This document shows positions 4,395 to 12,072 of a DNA stretch of 64,000 nt, piece after piece. The notes under the pieces were generated by a model. The model had not been told where the DNA came from, did not search any database, and was given only the letters and a program-made list of their open reading frames with translations. Position numbers and translations under genes: made by a program. This DNA comes from Burkholderia cenocepacia (GTDB lineage Bacteria; Pseudomonadota; Gammaproteobacteria; Burkholderiales; Burkholderiaceae): contig NZ_CP060041.1 of assembly GCF_014211915.1 (NCBI RefSeq), positions 496,001 to 560,000 on the forward strand, written 5' to 3'. How positions within the stretch are numbered: the first letter of the stretch is position 1; every line of letters starts with the position of its first letter.

Positions 4395-5642
4395 TCATTC
4401 GAGCTCGACGCCCTTGAGCTCGGGGATCAGGAACAGCGTCGCGACCATGTCGAGCACATAGAGGCCGGCGAGCAGCGCGATGGCTGTCTGGAACGAGTAG
4501 TGCGCGGCGAGCGCGCCGACCGCGACCGGGCCGAAGCCGCCGACCGCGCGGCCGATGTTCCACAGCACGTTCTGCGCGGTCGCGCGTGCGGCCGTCGGAT
4601 AGCCTTCCGACATCAGCGTCCCGTAGCCGCCGACCATCCCGTTGACGAACATCCCCATCAGCGCGCCGGCCCACAGCATCGCCGTCGGGTCCGACAGCCG
4701 CGCATAGGCGATGACCGTCACGACCGAGCCGAGCTGGTACAGCAGGAACGTCGGCTTGCGGCCGATGCGGTCGGCCAGTTGGCCGAACACCCAGACGCCG
4801 ATCATCATCCCGACGACGGTCGCCGCCGTCCACAGCCCCGATTTCGTCAGCGAGAAGCCCATCTGCTTCGACAGGAAGGTCGGCAGCCAGATCATGATCC
4901 CGTAGTAGCCGAAATTCTGGACCGAACACAGGATCGCGATGCCGACGCTCGTGCGCGCGGTGCGGCCGTCGGCGACGAGCATGCGGAACGCGTTGGATTT
5001 CGGCTGCGTCGCGCGCTGCACGAACGCTTCCGGCTCGTGCAGCTTGTTGCGCATCACCCACGCGAGCAGCGCGGGCAGCACGCCGACCACGAACATGCCG
5101 CGCCAGCCGATGTGGAGCAGCAGCAACGGCGTCAGCAGCGCGGCCAGCAGCACGCCGACCTGCCAGCCGAGCGCGACGTAGCACGACACGCGGGCGCGCT
5201 TGGCTGCGGGCCACGCTTCGGCCGCGAGCGCCATGCCGATCCCGAACTCGCCGCCGAGGCCGATGCCCGCGATGGTGCGATAGACGAGCAGATCCTCGAA
5301 ACCGCGTGCGAATGCGCACAGGCCGGTGAAGATCGCGAACAGCAGGATCGTCCAGGTCAGCACGCGCACGCGCCCGTAGCGGTCGCTCAGCGCGCCGAAC
5401 ACGATGCCGCCCGCGACCGCGCCGACCAGCGTCCACGTGACCAGCGCGCCGCCCTGCCCGGGCGTCAGGTGCAACGCCGCCGTGATCGCCGGCAGCATGA
5501 AGCCGAGGATCAGCAGGTCGAAGCCGTCCATCGCATAGCCGATCGCCGAGCCGGCCAGCGCTTTCCACGCGTACGCCCCGACCTGCTCGACGCGCGGGGT
5601 CGACGGGCCGCCGAGCGCCGAAGATTTCATGTTTGCTGCCAT
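4395..5642 (-). CDS. MFS transporter (aromatic-acid/sialate-type sugar porter-like)
   Basis: A 415-residue, 12-helix inner-membrane protein. The first helix motif GYAMDGFDLLILGFMLPAI and the loop motif GALSDRYGRVRV (between helices 2 and 3), repeated as GQLADRIGRKP in the second half, place it near the AAHS/sialate branch of the MFS. These are proton-coupled importers of aromatic or sugar acids. Its ATG at 5642 is preceded by no strong ribosome site. The LOG gene follows with possible start/stop overlap. Substrate is not predictable. Confidence 0.85.
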   Translation of the reverse strand: MAANMKSSALGGPSTPRVEQVGAYAWKALAGSAIGYAMDGFDLLILGFMLPAITAALHLTPGQGGALVTWTLVGAVAGGIVFGALSDRYGRVRVLTWTILLFAIFTGLCAFARGFEDLLVYRTIAGIGLGGEFGIGMALAAEAWPAAKRARVSCYVALGWQVGVLLAALLTPLLLLHIGWRGMFVVGVLPALLAWVMRNKLHEPEAFVQRATQPKSNAFRMLVADGRTARTSVGIAILCSVQNFGYYGIMIWLPTFLSKQMGFSLTKSGLWTAATVVGMMIGVWVFGQLADRIGRKPTFLLYQLGSVVTVIAYARLSDPTAMLWAGALMGMFVNGMVGGYGTLMSEGYPTAARATAQNVLWNIGRAVGGFGPVAVGALAAHYSFQTAIALLAGLYVLDMVATLFLIPELKGVELE

Positions 5643-5927
5643 GGTGTCCTGCCACGAATGTCCGGCGACATTCTAAGGCCTGTGCCCGCGAACGACGGAG
5701 GCGGACGCACGTCGGCCCGCGCTGGCGGGGCGGCAGGCGGAAAATGACAGGCAACGAGCGGAAAAGAGAAAAGAGAAGGGAAAACGTCGATCCGGTGCGG
5801 CGGCGAGGCCGGCGATGTCGCGATCAGGCCGGACACCGGATGAAAGACAGCAGGCGGGCGGAGGATTGCCGGCCGGCCCGCCCGCGCGAACCGGGCGGCG
5901 CCGGATGGCCTTGCAATGCGACGGGCT

Positions 5928-6257
5928 TCAGCCCTGATCGTCCCCGGGCCACCAGGTCTTGGCCTCGCGATCGACCGCAAGCGTTTCGAGATCCTTGCCT
6001 TCGAGCCATTTCGGCCGCGGGCCGCGCCCCGACCATGAGCGGCCGGTCGACGGATCGTAGTACTTGGCAGGCGCCTTGCGCTTGCGCTGGACGATGTAGC
6101 CGAGCGCACTCAGCACTTCCTGTTGCGAAATTCCCAGCAACTCGACCTGTTCCTTGAACGCCGCGAGCGCGGCCTGCTTCTCCTTCTGCTTCGCCTCTGA
6201 CAGCTTGATGTTCAGGTCCCGAAGTTGTGCTTCGAGTTCCTGCAGGGCCTGGGTCAT
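5928..6257 (-). CDS. H-NS family nucleoid-associated protein
   Basis: A 109-residue protein. Residues 1-50 are a charged coiled coil (oligomerisation). Residues ~62-100 hold the C-terminal DNA-binding domain with the H-NS signature YYDPSTGRSWSGRGPRPKWL. This family silences AT-rich, often foreign DNA. ATG 6257 is chosen because AGAGG lies eight bases upstream; a second in-frame ATG at 6278 has none. It lies immediately downstream of the retron-like unit, but nothing shows a functional link. Confidence 0.88.
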   Translation of the reverse strand: MTQALQELEAQLRDLNIKLSEAKQKEKQAALAAFKEQVELLGISQQEVLSALGYIVQRKRKAPAKYYDPSTGRSWSGRGPRPKWLEGKDLETLAVDREAKTWWPGDDQG

Positions 6258-6576
6258 GTATTCATCCTCTTTGGGCATGTTTTTGCAAAAAGCTCCGATG
6301 GCCGAACCTACCACGAAGTTCAGCCGATCGGGGCTGTCAAATAGGTGAATCGTCCACCTGAGCCGGCATGATTGCGCGATACGCACTAAACGACGTCGTG
6401 CGTCACTGACAGACAGGGCCAGGCCGGCAAAGGCGGCGCCGCGTACGCATGCAAGGGGCGAACGGCGGCGGCAAATGATCGCCGCGCGTGGCACGGGCGC
6501 GGCATGGCGCGAATGATAGCAGTGCGCGGCGTCGTGATGCAGAAGTCGCTGACCGGCGTCGCGCGGGCCCGACGGT
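6258..6576. other. Intergenic region upstream of the H-NS gene
   Basis: No gene is seen. A TTGACA (minus strand, at 6340-6335) could be a -35 box for the H-NS gene, but no good -10 follows at the right distance. Confidence 0.4.
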
Positions 6577-7926
6577 TCAGCGATCGCCGCCGCCGGGCTC
6601 CCACGCGATCCGGTCGAGCAGCGCGCGCAGCTTCGCGCCGCGCGCCGCGTTCAACGCCGCCGCATGCGCGACGCGTCCGGCCAGATGCGCACGAAAATCC
6701 GGATGCGCGTCGTGGTTCTGCGACGCCGGGCCATGCCGGATGCAATTGGTCAGGACGGCCTTCAGGCGATCGAACGCGTCGCGCGCCAGATTCGGATGAC
6801 GGTTGACGACCACGCCGGCCAGTTGCTGGCGCGCACCGCGCCGCATCACGCGGGTCTTGCGCAATTGCAGCGCGAAACCTTCCTCGAGCGCGATCGCGGC
6901 GACCCGGATCTGCAGCCGCTCGATGTCGCGCGCGAGCGCGCCGCCGCCGGAGAACGCGAGATCGTCCGCATAGCGCGTGTAGGTCGCATCGAGCGAACGC
7001 GCGAGCGCGGCGAGCCGCAGGTCGAACCGGAACGCGCACAGGTTCGCGAGCGCCGGCGACGTCGGCGCCCCCTGCGGCAGATGCCGTTCGCGATAGCGCT
7101 GGCGACCGATCCAGTCGAACCGGTCGCGCAGGTCCGGCGCGAGCAGCCGCGCCGACGGCACGCGATTGGTACACAGCCCGGTGAGCGTACGCGCGACTTC
7201 GGCCGGATACCCGAGCGTCGCGAACAGCGCATGGACGCGCGCGGCGCGCACCGACACGAAGAAATCCGCGAGATCGAAGCGCACGACGACCTCGCGATCC
7301 GCATGCGGCGCCGCGAACGACACGATCCCGTGCCCCTTGCGAAAACCGTGTACCGCGCCGTGCGGCGCAATGCGATCGAGCAGCCCGTGCAGGATGCGAC
7401 GCTGCGCTTCGCGCAGCCGTCCCTTCGGGATTTCGACGAGGCGGCACCCGCCGCTGCGCTTGTCGACCGCGACGTATGTGTAGTGATGCAGCGGCGTGGC
7501 GCTGCTGCGCGCGTCGACACGCCAGTGATCGGACAGCCAGTCGAGTTCCGGCACGCTCACCCCGAGCCAGCCGGCGAGATCGCCGGGCGTCGGCCAGTGC
7601 GGCACGTCGCAGCCGGCGAGCGGCACGGGCAGCGGTCGCTGGACCAGCGGCCGCCGCACGATGCGGATCACCACCGGCCGACGGTCGCCATACCATACGC
7701 GCACGAACGCGGGCGCCTCGGCCAGGATCGCCGCGAGCGCGTCGGTGTCGGTATCGACCCAGTCCGCACCGAAGCGGGCGAGCGCGAGGTCCGCGCAGTC
7801 GTGCGTCCACGGCGGTGCTTCGCCGAGCACGGCGGCCATCCGCGCGACGATGCCGTCGCGCTCGGGCGAACCGGCGAGCATCGCCTCGGCAATCGTGCGG
7901 GTGGTGTCGCGCAGGGATGAGTGCAT
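6577..7926 (-). CDS. Retron-type reverse transcriptase
   Basis: A 449-residue RNA-directed DNA polymerase. Residues 1-110 are an extension that I do not recognise. The fingers and palm follow: FDLADFF (217-223) with the first catalytic Asp, LPQGAPTSPALANL (283-296), catalytic YADD (319-322) and LAGVVVN (369-375). FAAPH (204-208) is at the place of the retron NAxxH motif, and LAG replaces the retron VTG. The C-terminal thumb recalls myxobacterial retron RTs. No maturase, endonuclease or Cas1 domain is present. An a1/a2-bounded ncRNA region ends 11 bases upstream of the ATG. There is no clear ribosome site. It should make msDNA; whether it defends against phage is unknown. Confidence 0.9.
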   Translation of the reverse strand: MHSSLRDTTRTIAEAMLAGSPERDGIVARMAAVLGEAPPWTHDCADLALARFGADWVDTDTDALAAILAEAPAFVRVWYGDRRPVVIRIVRRPLVQRPLPVPLAGCDVPHWPTPGDLAGWLGVSVPELDWLSDHWRVDARSSATPLHHYTYVAVDKRSGGCRLVEIPKGRLREAQRRILHGLLDRIAPHGAVHGFRKGHGIVSFAAPHADREVVVRFDLADFFVSVRAARVHALFATLGYPAEVARTLTGLCTNRVPSARLLAPDLRDRFDWIGRQRYRERHLPQGAPTSPALANLCAFRFDLRLAALARSLDATYTRYADDLAFSGGGALARDIERLQIRVAAIALEEGFALQLRKTRVMRRGARQQLAGVVVNRHPNLARDAFDRLKAVLTNCIRHGPASQNHDAHPDFRAHLAGRVAHAAALNAARGAKLRALLDRIAWEPGGGDR

Positions 7927-7937
7927 GGGAAACGGAG

Positions 7938-8103
7938 GCGGGACGATGGGTCAACGTGGCTGGTGCTGCGAGAGCCGTCGTTGCGCAACGCGCAACATGC
8001 GCACTTGCGACGCATCGGTGTATCGATCTGATCCACGGGGTAGCCCCGTAGTCCTGGAACATCGGCTGCCTGTTCCGGGCGTGTGCTTGACCCACCGCCC
8101 CGC
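7938..8103 (-). ncRNA. Candidate retron msr-msd non-coding RNA
   Basis: Read in the sense of the reverse transcriptase, the region opens with a1 (GCGGGGCGGTGGGTCAA, 8103-8087) and closes with a2 (TTGACCCATCGTCCCGC, 7954-7938). These pair over 17 bp with only two G-U wobbles. Directly after a1 comes AGC, whose G (position 8086) is the expected branching guanosine. Two small msr hairpins follow: GGAACA/TGTTCC (8078-8054 region) and ACGGGG-CTA-CCCCGT (8049-8035). The msd part has a hairpin at about 8012-7976 (CGTCG/CGACG enclosing TGCGCA/TGCGCA). Order and spacing match known retrons; msDNA production is inferred. Confidence 0.8.
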
Positions 8104-8109
8104 GTCGCG

Positions 8110-8139
8110 ACTTTAATCGGCGGCCGCGCCAGGTGTCAA
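8110..8139 (-). promoter_or_regulatory. Sigma-70-like promoter of the retron transcript
   Basis: TTGACA (8139-8134) is followed, 18 bases on, by TAAAGT (8115-8110, four of six consensus bases). A start seven bases downstream would be at about 8103, exactly the first base of the a1 repeat. Confidence 0.6.
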
Positions 8140-8178
8140 ATCGAGCCGAACGATGCGCGTCGCGCGGCGGCCTCGCGC

Positions 8179-8751
8179 TTATGCGCGCCGGCTGAACAGC
8201 TCGCTGAACGCGATCGGCGCCACGCCGATGCCGGCCAGGCCGTTCAGTATCGTCGCCCAGCTCGCGTCGGCCACGCTGACCGGAAACGACCGTACGCGAT
8301 GGGCGAGCAGCCAGAAGGTGCGCGTCATGCCGTCGCTCATCGCGACCTCGTAGCCGCTTGCCGCCGCCCAGTAGCCGACCGACGGCAACGTCACAGGTGC
8401 GTCGCGGCCGCTTCCGAACGCGGCGGCCGCCGTCGCGAACTTGCTGTCGAGCGACATGGCGCGGCGCGGTACGCAATCCTGCGAATTCTGTTTCGGGAAC
8501 GTGGGGCTCGTCTCGAGCCAGCGGCGATAGAACGTCTCCGCGTCGATATGGACGACGAACCGCTCCGCGCCACCCGGCTCGGCCTTCAGATAGCAGTCCG
8601 CCTGGTTCGGCACGGGAACGCGCCACGTCGCGCGCTTCGCACTCAGGTCGACCAGTTCGCAGGCCATCGACGGGCGCTGGGCGGGTATAGCGGCTCCGGA
8701 TTCGCGCAGGTCCTGTGCGCGAAGGATGCCGTTACGAAGACGTGTCAGCAT
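8179..8751 (-). CDS. Unknown protein upstream of the retron-like unit
   Basis: A 190-residue, probably soluble protein of no family I can name with confidence. ATG 8751 has GAGAGGG just upstream. Residues 30-70 contain two Cys residues (ACELVD, ADCYLKAE) and a further Cys lies at QDCVPRR. The C-terminal third is enriched in aromatic residues (VGYWAAASGYEVAMSDGMTRTFWLLAHRV). It is co-oriented with the reverse transcriptase. Its stop lies 39 bases before the retron -35 box, so it could be the retron's accessory gene or simply a neighbour. Confidence 0.7.
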   Translation of the reverse strand: MLTRLRNGILRAQDLRESGAAIPAQRPSMACELVDLSAKRATWRVPVPNQADCYLKAEPGGAERFVVHIDAETFYRRWLETSPTFPKQNSQDCVPRRAMSLDSKFATAAAAFGSGRDAPVTLPSVGYWAAASGYEVAMSDGMTRTFWLLAHRVRSFPVSVADASWATILNGLAGIGVAPIAFSELFSRRA

Positions 8752-8973
8752 GGGCCCTCTCTCTTTCTCTCGATTTTTTCGCGTGAGTCGGGGCCCGTCG
8801 CGCGATCCGCGCCGGCGCCGCGATGCGGTCGCCCGGTTCCCCGATGCTCCCGAACGAATCGGGAACCCGCGCAGTGTATCGCCTTTCGATGCAGGTACGA
8901 CAGGACTCCGTCACGCCCCATACGGCGCCACCGGCCAGCACGGCTGACGCGGCAAACGGGCCACCCCGCTTCC

Positions 8974-9729
8974 CTACATGTTGCCCGCCAGATGAAACCG
9001 CGACGCCGGATGCCACAGTCTGACCGACGTGGCGACCTGATCGCCGACCCACGTACGGCGTCGCAACAGCAAGCACGGTTCGCCGATTTCCATCACGAGA
9101 TGCCGACGCACCTGCGCATTGGGCTTCTCCGCGTAGATCCGGAACTCCGCACGCTGGATCGGCGCCAGTCGCACCATGTAGTGATTCGGCGTCTCGAGCG
9201 TGAAGTCCTGCTCCAGATACGCGGGAAACAACGCCGGATTCACGTAGCGATCCTCGAACTGGATCGGTTCGTCCTCCTCGTAATGGACGATACGCGAATG
9301 AAACACGGGCCCGGCGCGCAACCCGAGCGCATCGATCGCGTCCGGGTCGACGCTGCGCTCGATCAGCAGCACGCGCGCACTGTGCCGGTGGCCGCGCTCG
9401 GCAATCTCGTCCGCGATGTTGCGGATCTCCAGCACCGTCGACTCGTAATGCCGGCGCTCGACGAACGTGCCGGCCCCCTGGATGCGGGTCAGCACGCGCT
9501 CGGCCGTCAACTCGCGCAGCGCGCGCGACACCGTCATCCGGGCCACACCGAACTCCTTGACCAGCTCGGCCTCGGTCGGGATCGCGCCGCCGGGCTTCCA
9601 GTCGCCCTTCGCGATCCGCTCGACGACGTAGCGCTTGATCTGCTGGTAGGCCGGCAATGCCCGCGCCGGCACGGTGTCTGCCGATGCCGACGCCTGCCGG
9701 GCGGAAAGTCTGCGTTCCGTTTCGCTCAT
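8974..9729 (-). CDS. hutC: HutC-type GntR-family regulator
   Basis: A 251-residue regulator. Residues ~20-90 form the GntR winged helix (IPTEAELVKEFGVARMTVSRALRELTAE). Residues ~105-245 form the UTRA ligand domain of the HutC/FarR subfamily. HutC proteins repress histidine-utilisation genes and are released by urocanate. ATG 9729 has GAGGG four bases upstream. An in-frame ATG at 9783 overlaps the lyase-like gene stop by four bases and is the alternative. It is the last gene of the importer/lyase operon, so it is probably autoregulated through the site near 14603. Confidence 0.82.
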   Translation of the reverse strand: MSETERRLSARQASASADTVPARALPAYQQIKRYVVERIAKGDWKPGGAIPTEAELVKEFGVARMTVSRALRELTAERVLTRIQGAGTFVERRHYESTVLEIRNIADEIAERGHRHSARVLLIERSVDPDAIDALGLRAGPVFHSRIVHYEEDEPIQFEDRYVNPALFPAYLEQDFTLETPNHYMVRLAPIQRAEFRIYAEKPNAQVRRHLVMEIGEPCLLLRRRTWVGDQVATSVRLWHPASRFHLAGNM

Positions 9730-9779
9730 GCGCCCTCGACCGAATGAATATGGGGTGATCGGCTCGCCGTTGACCGTCG

Positions 9780-11273
9780 TCATCGCAACGACGGCGGCAC
9801 ACCGGCGACGATGCCGGCCGCGATCGCGATATCGTCCGCCAGCGGCCGGTCGTCGTGATACGCCGGCGCACGTTCGCGCACGTGTCGCCACAGCGCGTCG
9901 GTCGATGCGGCGCGCCCCGTTTCGCCCGGCTGCAGATCGTACGCCTGCGCGGCGGCCAGCAGCTCGATCGCGAGCACGCGCGTCGTGTTCTCGATGATGT
10001 CGAGCGCTTTCAGCGCGGCCGGCGTCGCATGACACAGGTGATCTTCCTGCAGCCCCGACGTGATGCCGCCGTCGAGGCTCGCCGGCGCCGCGAGCCGCTG
10101 ATTCTGCGCGACCAGCGCGACCGCCGTGTACTGCGCGATCATGAAACCCGAACAGCTGCCGCCCGGCGTGGCAAGAAACGCCGGCAGCCCGCTGACGAGC
10201 GGATTCACGAGTCGGTCGAGCCGCCGCTCGGCGATCGCCGCGACCTGCGCCATCGCGCTCGCGAGGCTGTCCATCGCGAGCGCGATGCCGGCGCCGACCG
10301 CATGCGCCTGCGAATGTACGGCCGGCGCCTCGCGCGTGCCGGCGACGATCGGATTGTCGGTGACCGATGCGAGTTCGCGATCGACGACCTCCGCCGTGAC
10401 GTCGAACACGTCGCGCGCCGCGCCATGCACGTGCGGAATCGTGCGCAGGCTGAGCGGGTCCTGCGTATGTCGGCCGCTCGCCGCGGCAAGCATGCCGCTG
10501 TCCGCCAGCAGCGCACGCAAACGGGCGCCGACCTGCCCGATACCGGGGGAAATCCGCAGCGCGAGCGAAGCCGGATCGAATGCGGCGAGTTGCCCGCCGA
10601 GGTTCTCGAAGCTCATCGCCGCAATCCAGTCGGCCCAGTCGAGCAACCGTTCCGCGCGGGCCAGCGCGAGCGCCGCCAGCCCCGTGACGCACGGCGTCCC
10701 GTTGACGAGGCTCAACCCTTCCTTCGCACCGAGGACGAGCGGTTCGCGGCCGATGCGCCGCAGCGCCTCGTCGCCGCGTATGCGTTCGCCGCGATGGCGC
10801 GCATGGCCGTGCCCGACGCAGACGAGCGCGACGTGCGCCATGTGGGTCAGGTATCCGACCGAGCCGTGCGCCGGCACTTCGGGAAGGCAATCGTGCTCGA
10901 GCAGCGCGACGAGCTGGTCGACGACGTCGGCACGCACGCCCGAATGCCCGTGCGCATAGTTGTTGATCGCGGCCGCGATGATCGCGCGCGTTTCGGCCGC
11001 GCCGAGCGGCATGCCGACGCCCACCGCGTGACTCATCAGGATGTTGTGCGACAACGTGCTCTGCTGGGCCGGCGACACGATCACGTCGCACAGCGCGCCG
11101 ACGCCGGTATTGACGCCGTAGGCGCGAATCCCGCGCGCGACGATCTCGTCGACGAGTTCGCGAGCGGCCACGACCCGCGCGCGCGTCTCGTCGGCCAATG
11201 CCAGCGGCTCGCCGGCCGCCACCGCCGCAACCTGTCGCCAGTCGAGCGGCCGCGCCGCACGGAATACGGTCAT
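9780..11273 (-). CDS. Histidine ammonia-lyase (HutH) family protein lacking the MIO triad
   Basis: A 497-residue HAL/PAL superfamily protein. It keeps YGVNTGVGAL, SHAVGVG, KEGLSLVNGT, QDPLSLRTIP, TDNPIV and QEDHL. In active HutH the sequence GSVGASGDLAPLAHMAL supplies Ala-Ser-Gly, which cyclises to the electrophilic MIO cofactor. Here residues 137-150 read GSVGYLTHMAHVAL: the three MIO residues are exactly missing, without a frameshift. It therefore should not perform MIO-dependent deamination; another lyase reaction, a binding role or loss of function are possible. It starts seven bases after the ABC ATPase stop. The amino acid handled by the operon is not certain. Confidence 0.85.
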   Translation of the reverse strand: MTVFRAARPLDWRQVAAVAAGEPLALADETRARVVAARELVDEIVARGIRAYGVNTGVGALCDVIVSPAQQSTLSHNILMSHAVGVGMPLGAAETRAIIAAAINNYAHGHSGVRADVVDQLVALLEHDCLPEVPAHGSVGYLTHMAHVALVCVGHGHARHRGERIRGDEALRRIGREPLVLGAKEGLSLVNGTPCVTGLAALALARAERLLDWADWIAAMSFENLGGQLAAFDPASLALRISPGIGQVGARLRALLADSGMLAAASGRHTQDPLSLRTIPHVHGAARDVFDVTAEVVDRELASVTDNPIVAGTREAPAVHSQAHAVGAGIALAMDSLASAMAQVAAIAERRLDRLVNPLVSGLPAFLATPGGSCSGFMIAQYTAVALVAQNQRLAAPASLDGGITSGLQEDHLCHATPAALKALDIIENTTRVLAIELLAAAQAYDLQPGETGRAASTDALWRHVRERAPAYHDDRPLADDIAIAAGIVAGVPPSLR

Positions 11274-11280
11274 GGCAGCC

Positions 11281-12072
11281 TCAGTTCGTGGTGCGGTCGT
11301 GGTGGCTCGACACGAATTGCCGGAAGCGCTCGGAGGTCTGGCCGCCGAAGACTTCGTCGGGCGTCCCGTCCGTATCGACCTCGCCCTGATGCAGGAACAT
11401 CACGCGGTTCGATACGTGGCGTGCAAAGCCCATTTCATGCGTGACGACCAGCATCGTGCGCCCCTCCTCCGCCAGCGAGCGCATCACGCGCAGCACCTCG
11501 CCGACCAGCTCCGGGTCGAGCGCCGACGTCGGTTCGTCGAACAGCATCACCTTCGGATGCATCGCCAGCGCGCGGGCAATGGCGACACGTTGCTGCTGGC
11601 CGCCCGACAGGTGCGCGGGATAGTAGCCGCGCTTGTCCGCGAGGCCAACGCGTGCGAGCAGCGCCTCGGCTTCCTCCACCGCTTCCGCGCGACCGCGCTT
11701 CTGCACCCGCAGCGGCCCTTCGACGAGGTTGTCGAGCACCGTCATGTGCGACCACAGGTTGAAGTTCTGGAACACCATGCCGAGCTGCGAGCGAATCCGG
11801 TCGACCTGGCGCCGGTCGCTCGGATGCAGCTTGCCGTCGCGGGCGCGCTTCATCGCCAGCTCTTCGCCCGCGAGCGCGACGGAGCCGTCGTCGGGGGTCT
11901 CGAGCAGGTTCAGGCAACGCAGGAACGTGCTCTTGCCCGATCCGCTCGCGCCGAGGATCGAGATGACGTCGCCCTCGTGTGCGTCGAGCGAAATGCCCTT
12001 CAGCACATGGTGATCGCCGAACGACTTGTGGATGTTTCGGACCGACAGCGCAACGGGAGCAGCGGTGTTCAT
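11281..12072 (-). CDS. Polar amino acid ABC importer, ATPase (HisP/ArtP type)
   Basis: A 263-residue ATPase with Walker [11 protein letters not shown]-loop [12 protein letters not shown], signature [15 protein letters not shown], Walker [15 protein letters not shown] and H-loop VTHEMGFA. The insertion with KLHPSDRRQ before VDRIRSQLG is typical of HisP-like ATPases for basic amino acids. AGGAG precedes the ATG. The next gene downstream is the MIO-less lyase, so uptake and use of the same compound are probably co-expressed. Confidence 0.9.

Follow-up and report, generated by a model that had tools for sequence, protein, structure and literature searches.

A 64,000-nt stretch of the Burkholderia cenocepacia genome (GCF_014211915.1, NZ_CP060041.1, positions 496,001-560,000; hereafter the window, with coordinates counted from its first letter) carries on its minus strand a folded RNA at 8103-7938 and, directly behind it, a reverse transcriptase (RT) gene at 7926-6577. 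Very probably, these two elements form a retron of a clade that has its own RNA and no shared partner gene, with a short branched RNA-linked DNA as the predicted product. We draw the conclusion that this is a retron from covariation in the outer stem formed by two arms, a1 and a2, from RNA matches in 61 of 81 sources (the window and the best 80 of 562 loci fetched, 1.27 Mb in all), and from the co-occurrence of RNA and RT. An earlier note on this DNA had proposed a functional retron of the Mx162-like group; our results uphold the retron, whose function is likewise a prediction from sequence, and do not support its membership in that group.

Reading along the minus strand from 8139 to 6577, the order is promoter-like site, folded RNA and RT, with the following features:

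8110..8139, minus strand: sigma70-like promoter TTGACA-18-TAAAGT, a consensus match; predicted transcription start at or adjoining 8103, the first a1 base
8087..8103, minus strand: a1 arm of the outer stem, pairing with a2
8086, minus strand: candidate branching (priming) guanosine within AAGC (8088-8085), a role suggested by known retrons
8056..8076, minus strand: msr hairpin 1, which varies between lineages
8033..8051, minus strand: msr hairpin 2, CUACGGGGCUACCCCGUGG, with a GGGG-NNA-CCCC core; predicted RT-recognition element
7963..8011, minus strand: two-part msd hairpin, in which an internal loop divides the lower stem from the upper stem (7996-7980); predicted template of the hairpin DNA in the putative multicopy single-stranded DNA (msDNA)
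7938..7954, minus strand: a2 arm of the outer stem, pairing with a1
6577..7926, minus strand: retron-type RT, 449 aa, with its start codon 11 nt beyond a2
7627..7926, minus strand: N-terminal ~100 codons of the RT, a five-helix domain ahead of the RT fold; candidate built-in sensor or effector

RNA structure and covariation

The outer stem (8103-8087 / 7954-7938) comprises 17 bp, two of them G-U, and closes an RNA of 166 nt overall with 132 nt between the arms. The earlier note had described this same repeat, as well as the AGC beside a1 (AAGC at 8088-8085), two small hairpins (8076-8056 and 8051-8033) and a further one near a2 (8011-7963), all of which we read in the same way; its "166 nt apart" is correct for the outer span of the RNA and wrong for the distance between the arms. 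Folding of 8110-7935, which is the RNA with a few flanking bases, gives -82.7 kcal/mol versus -67.4 (standard deviation 4.0) in 200 shuffles, none of which does as well (z = -3.8). TTGACA-18-TAAAGT (8139-8110) is the sole promoter-like site within 7850-8250, where shuffles give a mean of 0.1, and its position, as had been pointed out, would start transcription at a1; it is a consensus match, not proof. In an alignment of relatives, the promoter bases are similar in most Burkholderia rows and not in Paraburkholderia rows.

Because Burkholderia relatives share much of the RNA sequence, distant relatives were needed for a test of covariation. A screen of 79 loci yielded a candidate RNA in 65, with some a1/a2 arms wrongly assigned, and coordinates were corrected by eye for an alignment, A2, of 26 sequences (the window and 25 of the screened loci, from Burkholderia to Planctomycetota and Actinomycetota). 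Run unguided on A2, RNAalifold finds 16 a1/a2 pairs, 15 of which have pairing-preserving changes on both sides. Across the named structure, 27 of 34 pairs have changed on both sides, pair counts on this alignment leaning towards the by-eye choice of arms, and the helix of hairpin 2 is 99.5% paired over the 26 sequences. Overall, 89.8% of cells pair, compared with 70.9% in shuffled alignments, which kinship among rows can beat without any structure, and at most 47.6% with slid partners, a control that flatters a structure derived from sequence. As each of these controls is biased, a covariance model was also built. The arms a1 and a2 are thus conserved with compensatory changes in homologous loci, which bears out the computational side of the case for a retron made in the earlier note.

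An RNA family across six phyla

At E<=1e-4, the covariance model matches 61 of the 81 sources (60 loci and the window), and 35 of these matches come from sources outside the training set and so serve as an independent check. Every match lies on the RT strand and 5' of the RT match, overlapping it by two bases in L064, and the extrapolated RT start follows the RNA at a median distance of 14 nt (range -44 to 324). Of the 61 matches, 57 have a G directly after a1, and in 59 an A precedes this position. Hairpin 2 keeps GGG and CCC in all 61, its outer G in 59 of the 60 that have a letter there and its outer C in 60 of 61.

RNA-bearing loci at this threshold occur in Pseudomonadota, Acidobacteriota, Planctomycetota, Verrucomicrobiota, Myxococcota and Actinomycetota, as assigned from record titles and taxonomy, which can err for the several loci that are metagenome bins. 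Four features persist across these six phyla with compensatory changes: the outer stem, hairpin 2, the A-G step that follows a1, and the msd hairpin. No Rfam model, of an msr or otherwise, matches window positions 5000-12000 up to E 1, and this RNA family is absent from Rfam.

RNA and RT also go together within the genus. Among 65 Burkholderia genomes, a family RT (at least 56% identity) is found in 44, with one copy each, and the RNA in 43, once each and ~12 nt before the RT in those compared; G000, for example, has a single RNA occurrence. The RNA is thus present in 43 of 44 RT-bearing genomes, the exception being G047, where the RT match is without its first 113 residues, and it is absent from all 21 genomes without a family RT. 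In G057 the RT is split over two contigs. Two side observations from this survey concern other genomes: G058 holds RT fragments only (residues 1-42 and 353-447, at C3:268891-269234) and no RNA, a natural loss, and contig C1 of G017 has six weak RT matches of near-equal score (E 4.5e-5 to 5.8e-5), possibly copies of a group II intron.

Reverse transcriptase and inheritance

The RT is of the retron type, with RT motifs and an intact YADD. Its region X reads FAAPH in place of NAxxH and its region Y reads LAG in place of VTG, as had been observed before and offered as the mark of a divergent clade. The RT clade is divergent, but the motif argument is weak since such variants are common: in the survey of Toro & Nisa-Martinez (2014), VTG occurs in 47% of retron RTs and I/L at its first position in 26%, and NAXXH in 59% with the H always retained (PMC4244168). 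Several members of the window RT's own clade, moreover, retain VTG. The N-terminal domain has five helices within residues 5-78, and no match to it was found in the PDB.

The ratio of nonsynonymous to synonymous substitution rates (dN/dS) of the RT is 0.14-0.37 across 19 pairs, and matches above 80% in plasmid and phage collections are confined to three large Burkholderia replicons. Two genes recur downstream of the RT among the 81 clustered sources: one that is H-NS-like (cluster c3), in 12, and one of the major facilitator superfamily (c2), in 14, of which L071 is outside Burkholderia. Taking together the genus distribution, the single copy, dN/dS, the few plasmid and phage matches and the recurring downstream genes, the retron resembles a gene settled in the chromosome more than it does a mobile cassette.

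Neighbouring genes and the question of a partner

Among 128 neighbours of RNA-bearing loci, the commonest Pfam families are H-NS (12) and PFIN (plasmid fertility inhibition; 8), followed by pentapeptide repeat, glyoxalase and LD_SV2 (3 each), and PADLOC families occur at most twice each. No gene common to lineages was found among the clustered flanks and next neighbours of RNA-bearing loci. In 52 loci outside Burkholderia and Paraburkholderia, counting any RNA match up to E 0.18, the strand of the neighbour is a coin flip: same-strand and opposite-strand genes number 25 and 24 upstream and 25 and 22 downstream. Since RNA and RT are found in six phyla without a shared neighbouring gene, this type of retron likely works without the usual separate effector. 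As a side observation, JetD, a component of the plasmid-defence system Wadjet, has a match among the 128 neighbours; from sequence, we take this gene to be L015:6835-7575, the upstream neighbour in Paraburkholderia solitsugae.

The neighbours that bear most directly on a possible partner are:

8179..8751, minus strand: PFIN-domain gene encoding 190 aa, separated from the RNA by 75 nt on its upstream side; a neighbour outside the core
L051:8975-9565, L055:9052-9675 and L061:9050-9634: pentapeptide-repeat genes directly after the RT

A separate effector would be the chief alternative, and we regard it as unlikely. Under this explanation PFIN would be a toxin or nuclease restrained by RT-msDNA in Burkholderia, with other genes, such as the pentapeptide-repeat gene of Pseudonocardiaceae, in its place elsewhere. 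Strong PFIN matches occur in 21 of the 65 Burkholderia genomes, and all 21 adjoin the retron RNA and share its strand. No strong match is found elsewhere in these genomes, the RT-less ones included, and weak ones (E 7e-5 to 5e-4) appear in G025 and G052; partial matches in G002, G044 and G046 also lie beside the RNA. However, 23 of the 44 RT-bearing genomes are without a strong PFIN match, the nearest upstream gene in L002 and L003 (94 and 90% RT identity) belongs instead to the GntR family, and PFIN is separated from the RNA by the promoter-like site. In addition, the count of PFIN among the 128 neighbours, whose members are not named, equals the size of c6, a cluster found entirely in Burkholderia. 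PFIN may be a lineage-specific accessory undergoing loss, or a bystander. In the three Pseudonocardiaceae loci, the pentapeptide-repeat gene overlaps the RT 3' end or lies at most 23 nt from it, and it is a possible lineage-specific partner there.

Relationship to myxobacterial retrons

Membership in the myxobacterial Mx162 group, as put forward in the earlier note, now appears very improbable. The best PADLOC models for the window RT are RT_other (481.2 bits) and RT_outgroup (455), with RT_XIII (306.6), which from the scores of myxobacterial RTs we take to represent the myxobacterial retrons, in third place. The window, L088 and L062 RTs together score 481-540 for RT_other, 455-511 for RT_outgroup and 255-307 bits for RT_XIII, whereas four myxobacterial-clade RTs (L089, L091, L101 and L110) have RT_XIII as best model at 473-607 bits, against 290-381 for RT_other. 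For L101, which has Sorangium, Hyalangium and Pendulispora proteins of ~480-500 aa among its named relatives, the two scores are 472.6 and 289.9 bits. The "Mx162-like" label of L100, L101, L102 and L110 is a tentative one.

Placement of the RT in a tree, a check that the earlier note had suggested, likewise puts it outside the myxobacterial group. The tree has 67 rows, in which the myxobacterial rows are genomes and three named proteins, with no verified Mx162 sequence, and the outgroup is one long row; L044, L098 and L103 were dropped as having no fitting frame (L104 was also without one), and over-long frames were retained for L039 (1044 aa) and L079 (800 aa). Two sister clades emerge, with support given by the Shimodaira-Hasegawa-like approximate likelihood ratio test (SH-aLRT). 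The first, at 82, has 20 rows, namely 13 of the 14 labelled myxobacterial and 7 that are RNA-less. The second, the RNA clade with the window, has 46 rows at 88, of which 39 form a core supported at 99; 41 of its rows are labelled RNA-bearing, 7 of these on weak matches (E 0.0015-0.18). At E<0.001 the RNA model R1 matches 2 of 26 Myxococcota loci, L087 and L088, both with a window-clade RT; these 26 loci are short (94,787 bases in total), and a distant common RNA could escape.

Given the PADLOC scores, the sister clades in the tree and RNA-model matches that, among the Myxococcota loci, are significant only at window-clade RTs, the window retron is best described, on present sequences, as a probable sister of the myxobacterial retrons rather than a member. 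The third-best rank of RT_XIII and the sister position speak for membership, as do the extended N-termini of both and the vertical inheritance reported for Mx162 (PMC6868368), but model scores and tree split the two clades, in a comparison made without a verified Mx162 sequence, and no significant RNA match occurs at myxobacterial-clade RTs.

Strength of the interpretation

Several observations weigh against a partnerless retron clade with its own RNA. Twenty of the 81 sources have no covariance-model match at E<=1e-4: four Actinobacterial sources match only at E 0.0015-0.0072, four more match in the right place only at E 0.015-0.18, and 12 have no properly placed RNA match, 7 of which belong to the sister clade and one of which (L013) has a contig that begins inside the RT. 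In the tree, the RNA clade holds 4 RNA-less rows among its 46 and one row labelled myxobacterial, 7 of the 41 RNA-bearing labels depend on weak matches, and the clade borders rest on the SH-aLRT values of 82 and 88 with a single long outgroup row. The lower msd stem of the window has a U-U mismatch (A2 columns 131-162) at a pair kept in the other 25 sequences, as well as an A-C where 12 of the 26 leave the pair unmade. Outside Burkholderia and Paraburkholderia, same-strand neighbours lie within 60 nt in 11 of 49 cases upstream and 10 of 47 downstream, and the PFIN gene adjoins the RNA in part of Burkholderia; lineage-specific partners are therefore possible. Finally, the role of the RT N-terminal domain rests on a guess.

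Might the retron be decayed or silent, its parts persisting with no msDNA made? The U-U mismatch and the loss in G058, with its two RT fragments and no RNA, would fit this, but the frame of 449 aa is intact with YADD retained, dN/dS is 0.20-0.37 between the window and 15 relatives, a promoter-like site is present, and RNA and RT occur together in all but one of the RT-bearing genomes, so that we find decay highly unlikely. Mismatched msDNA stems, for their part, might titrate mismatch repair. That the RNA is a structured leader controlling RT translation, or a template used otherwise (as in DRT2 and DRT9) and not an msr-msd, seems more improbable still, even with an RT start codon so close to a2 (11 nt) that a1/a2 folding could affect translation.

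Proposed mechanism

We propose that a single transcript would run from a1 into the RT gene, with a1 and a2 closing the RNA. By analogy with known retrons, the RT would bind the msr, most likely at the near-invariant GGGG-NNA-CCCC hairpin, and prime on the 2'-OH of G8086 beside a1; the msd would then be copied from ~7955 toward ~8015-8030 and the template removed, giving a hairpin msDNA whose length we put, very roughly, at 60-75 nt. The working unit may be the particle of RT and msDNA itself. As no partner is shared, the N-terminal five-helix domain would be the likeliest output or sensing module, a guess that we offer tentatively and that may well be wrong.

An anti-phage role is the default guess by analogy with other retrons, but a housekeeping role would also be in keeping with a gene that in Burkholderia is near-core and single-copy. 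It is tempting to speculate that this is a new two-part type of retron (RNA plus RT), present in at least six phyla, which can do without a separate effector because the N-terminal domain senses or kills, and which in Burkholderia is a long-retained, near-core chromosomal gene that is vertically inherited and serves its host constantly and not a swappable cassette; taken as a whole, this picture is possible but doubtful.

Comparison with known retrons

Retrons themselves, an RT clade that falls under PADLOC retron models, and the existence of retrons for which no effector is clear are already known. To these the present analysis adds a defined RNA family that Rfam lacks and that covaries across phyla, the strict association of this RNA with the RT, a separation from the myxobacterial retrons, and the lack of a shared partner. 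We found no description of this RNA family in the literature, in a search that did not extend to the central retron surveys or the PADLOC RNA models; PADLOC maintains msr-msd covariance models (PMC9252829).

The retrons whose workings are known to date are mostly phage alarms built of three parts. A large clade with an RNA recognisable across six phyla, present in 44 of 65 Burkholderia genomes and with no shared third gene, makes the purpose of partnerless retrons a testable question. The covariance model lets annotators find a locus that Rfam misses, and RNAs of such compact size may be of use as parts for DNA writing.

In myxobacterial retrons the RNA lies 5' of the RT, as it does here. The window shares with Mx162, Sa163 and their kin a retron RT with an extended N-terminus, as reported for Mx162 (PMC6868368). 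Mx162 differs in its 241-nt transcript, its msd of 162 nt and its CAGC branch site (PMC6868368) from the window RNA of ~166 nt with its 17-bp a1/a2 stem and AAGC, and the GGGG-NNA-CCCC hairpin RNA was not found by our model at myxobacterial-clade RTs. RT_other and RT_outgroup, the latter labelled retron, are protein models, for which we found no described RNA, partner or activity. Some retrons are reported without a clear effector-gene association (PMC8867640), and Retron-Bth1 has no obvious effector and an unclassified RT (PMC12548924); we found no cross-phylum RNA family described in either. A partner protein or a fused effector domain is known for Ec86/Eco1, Ec67/Eco2, Ec78/Eco7 and Eco8, whereas in the window clade no partner shared across lineages was found among the clustered flanks and next neighbours, and the RT carries an N-terminal five-helix domain.
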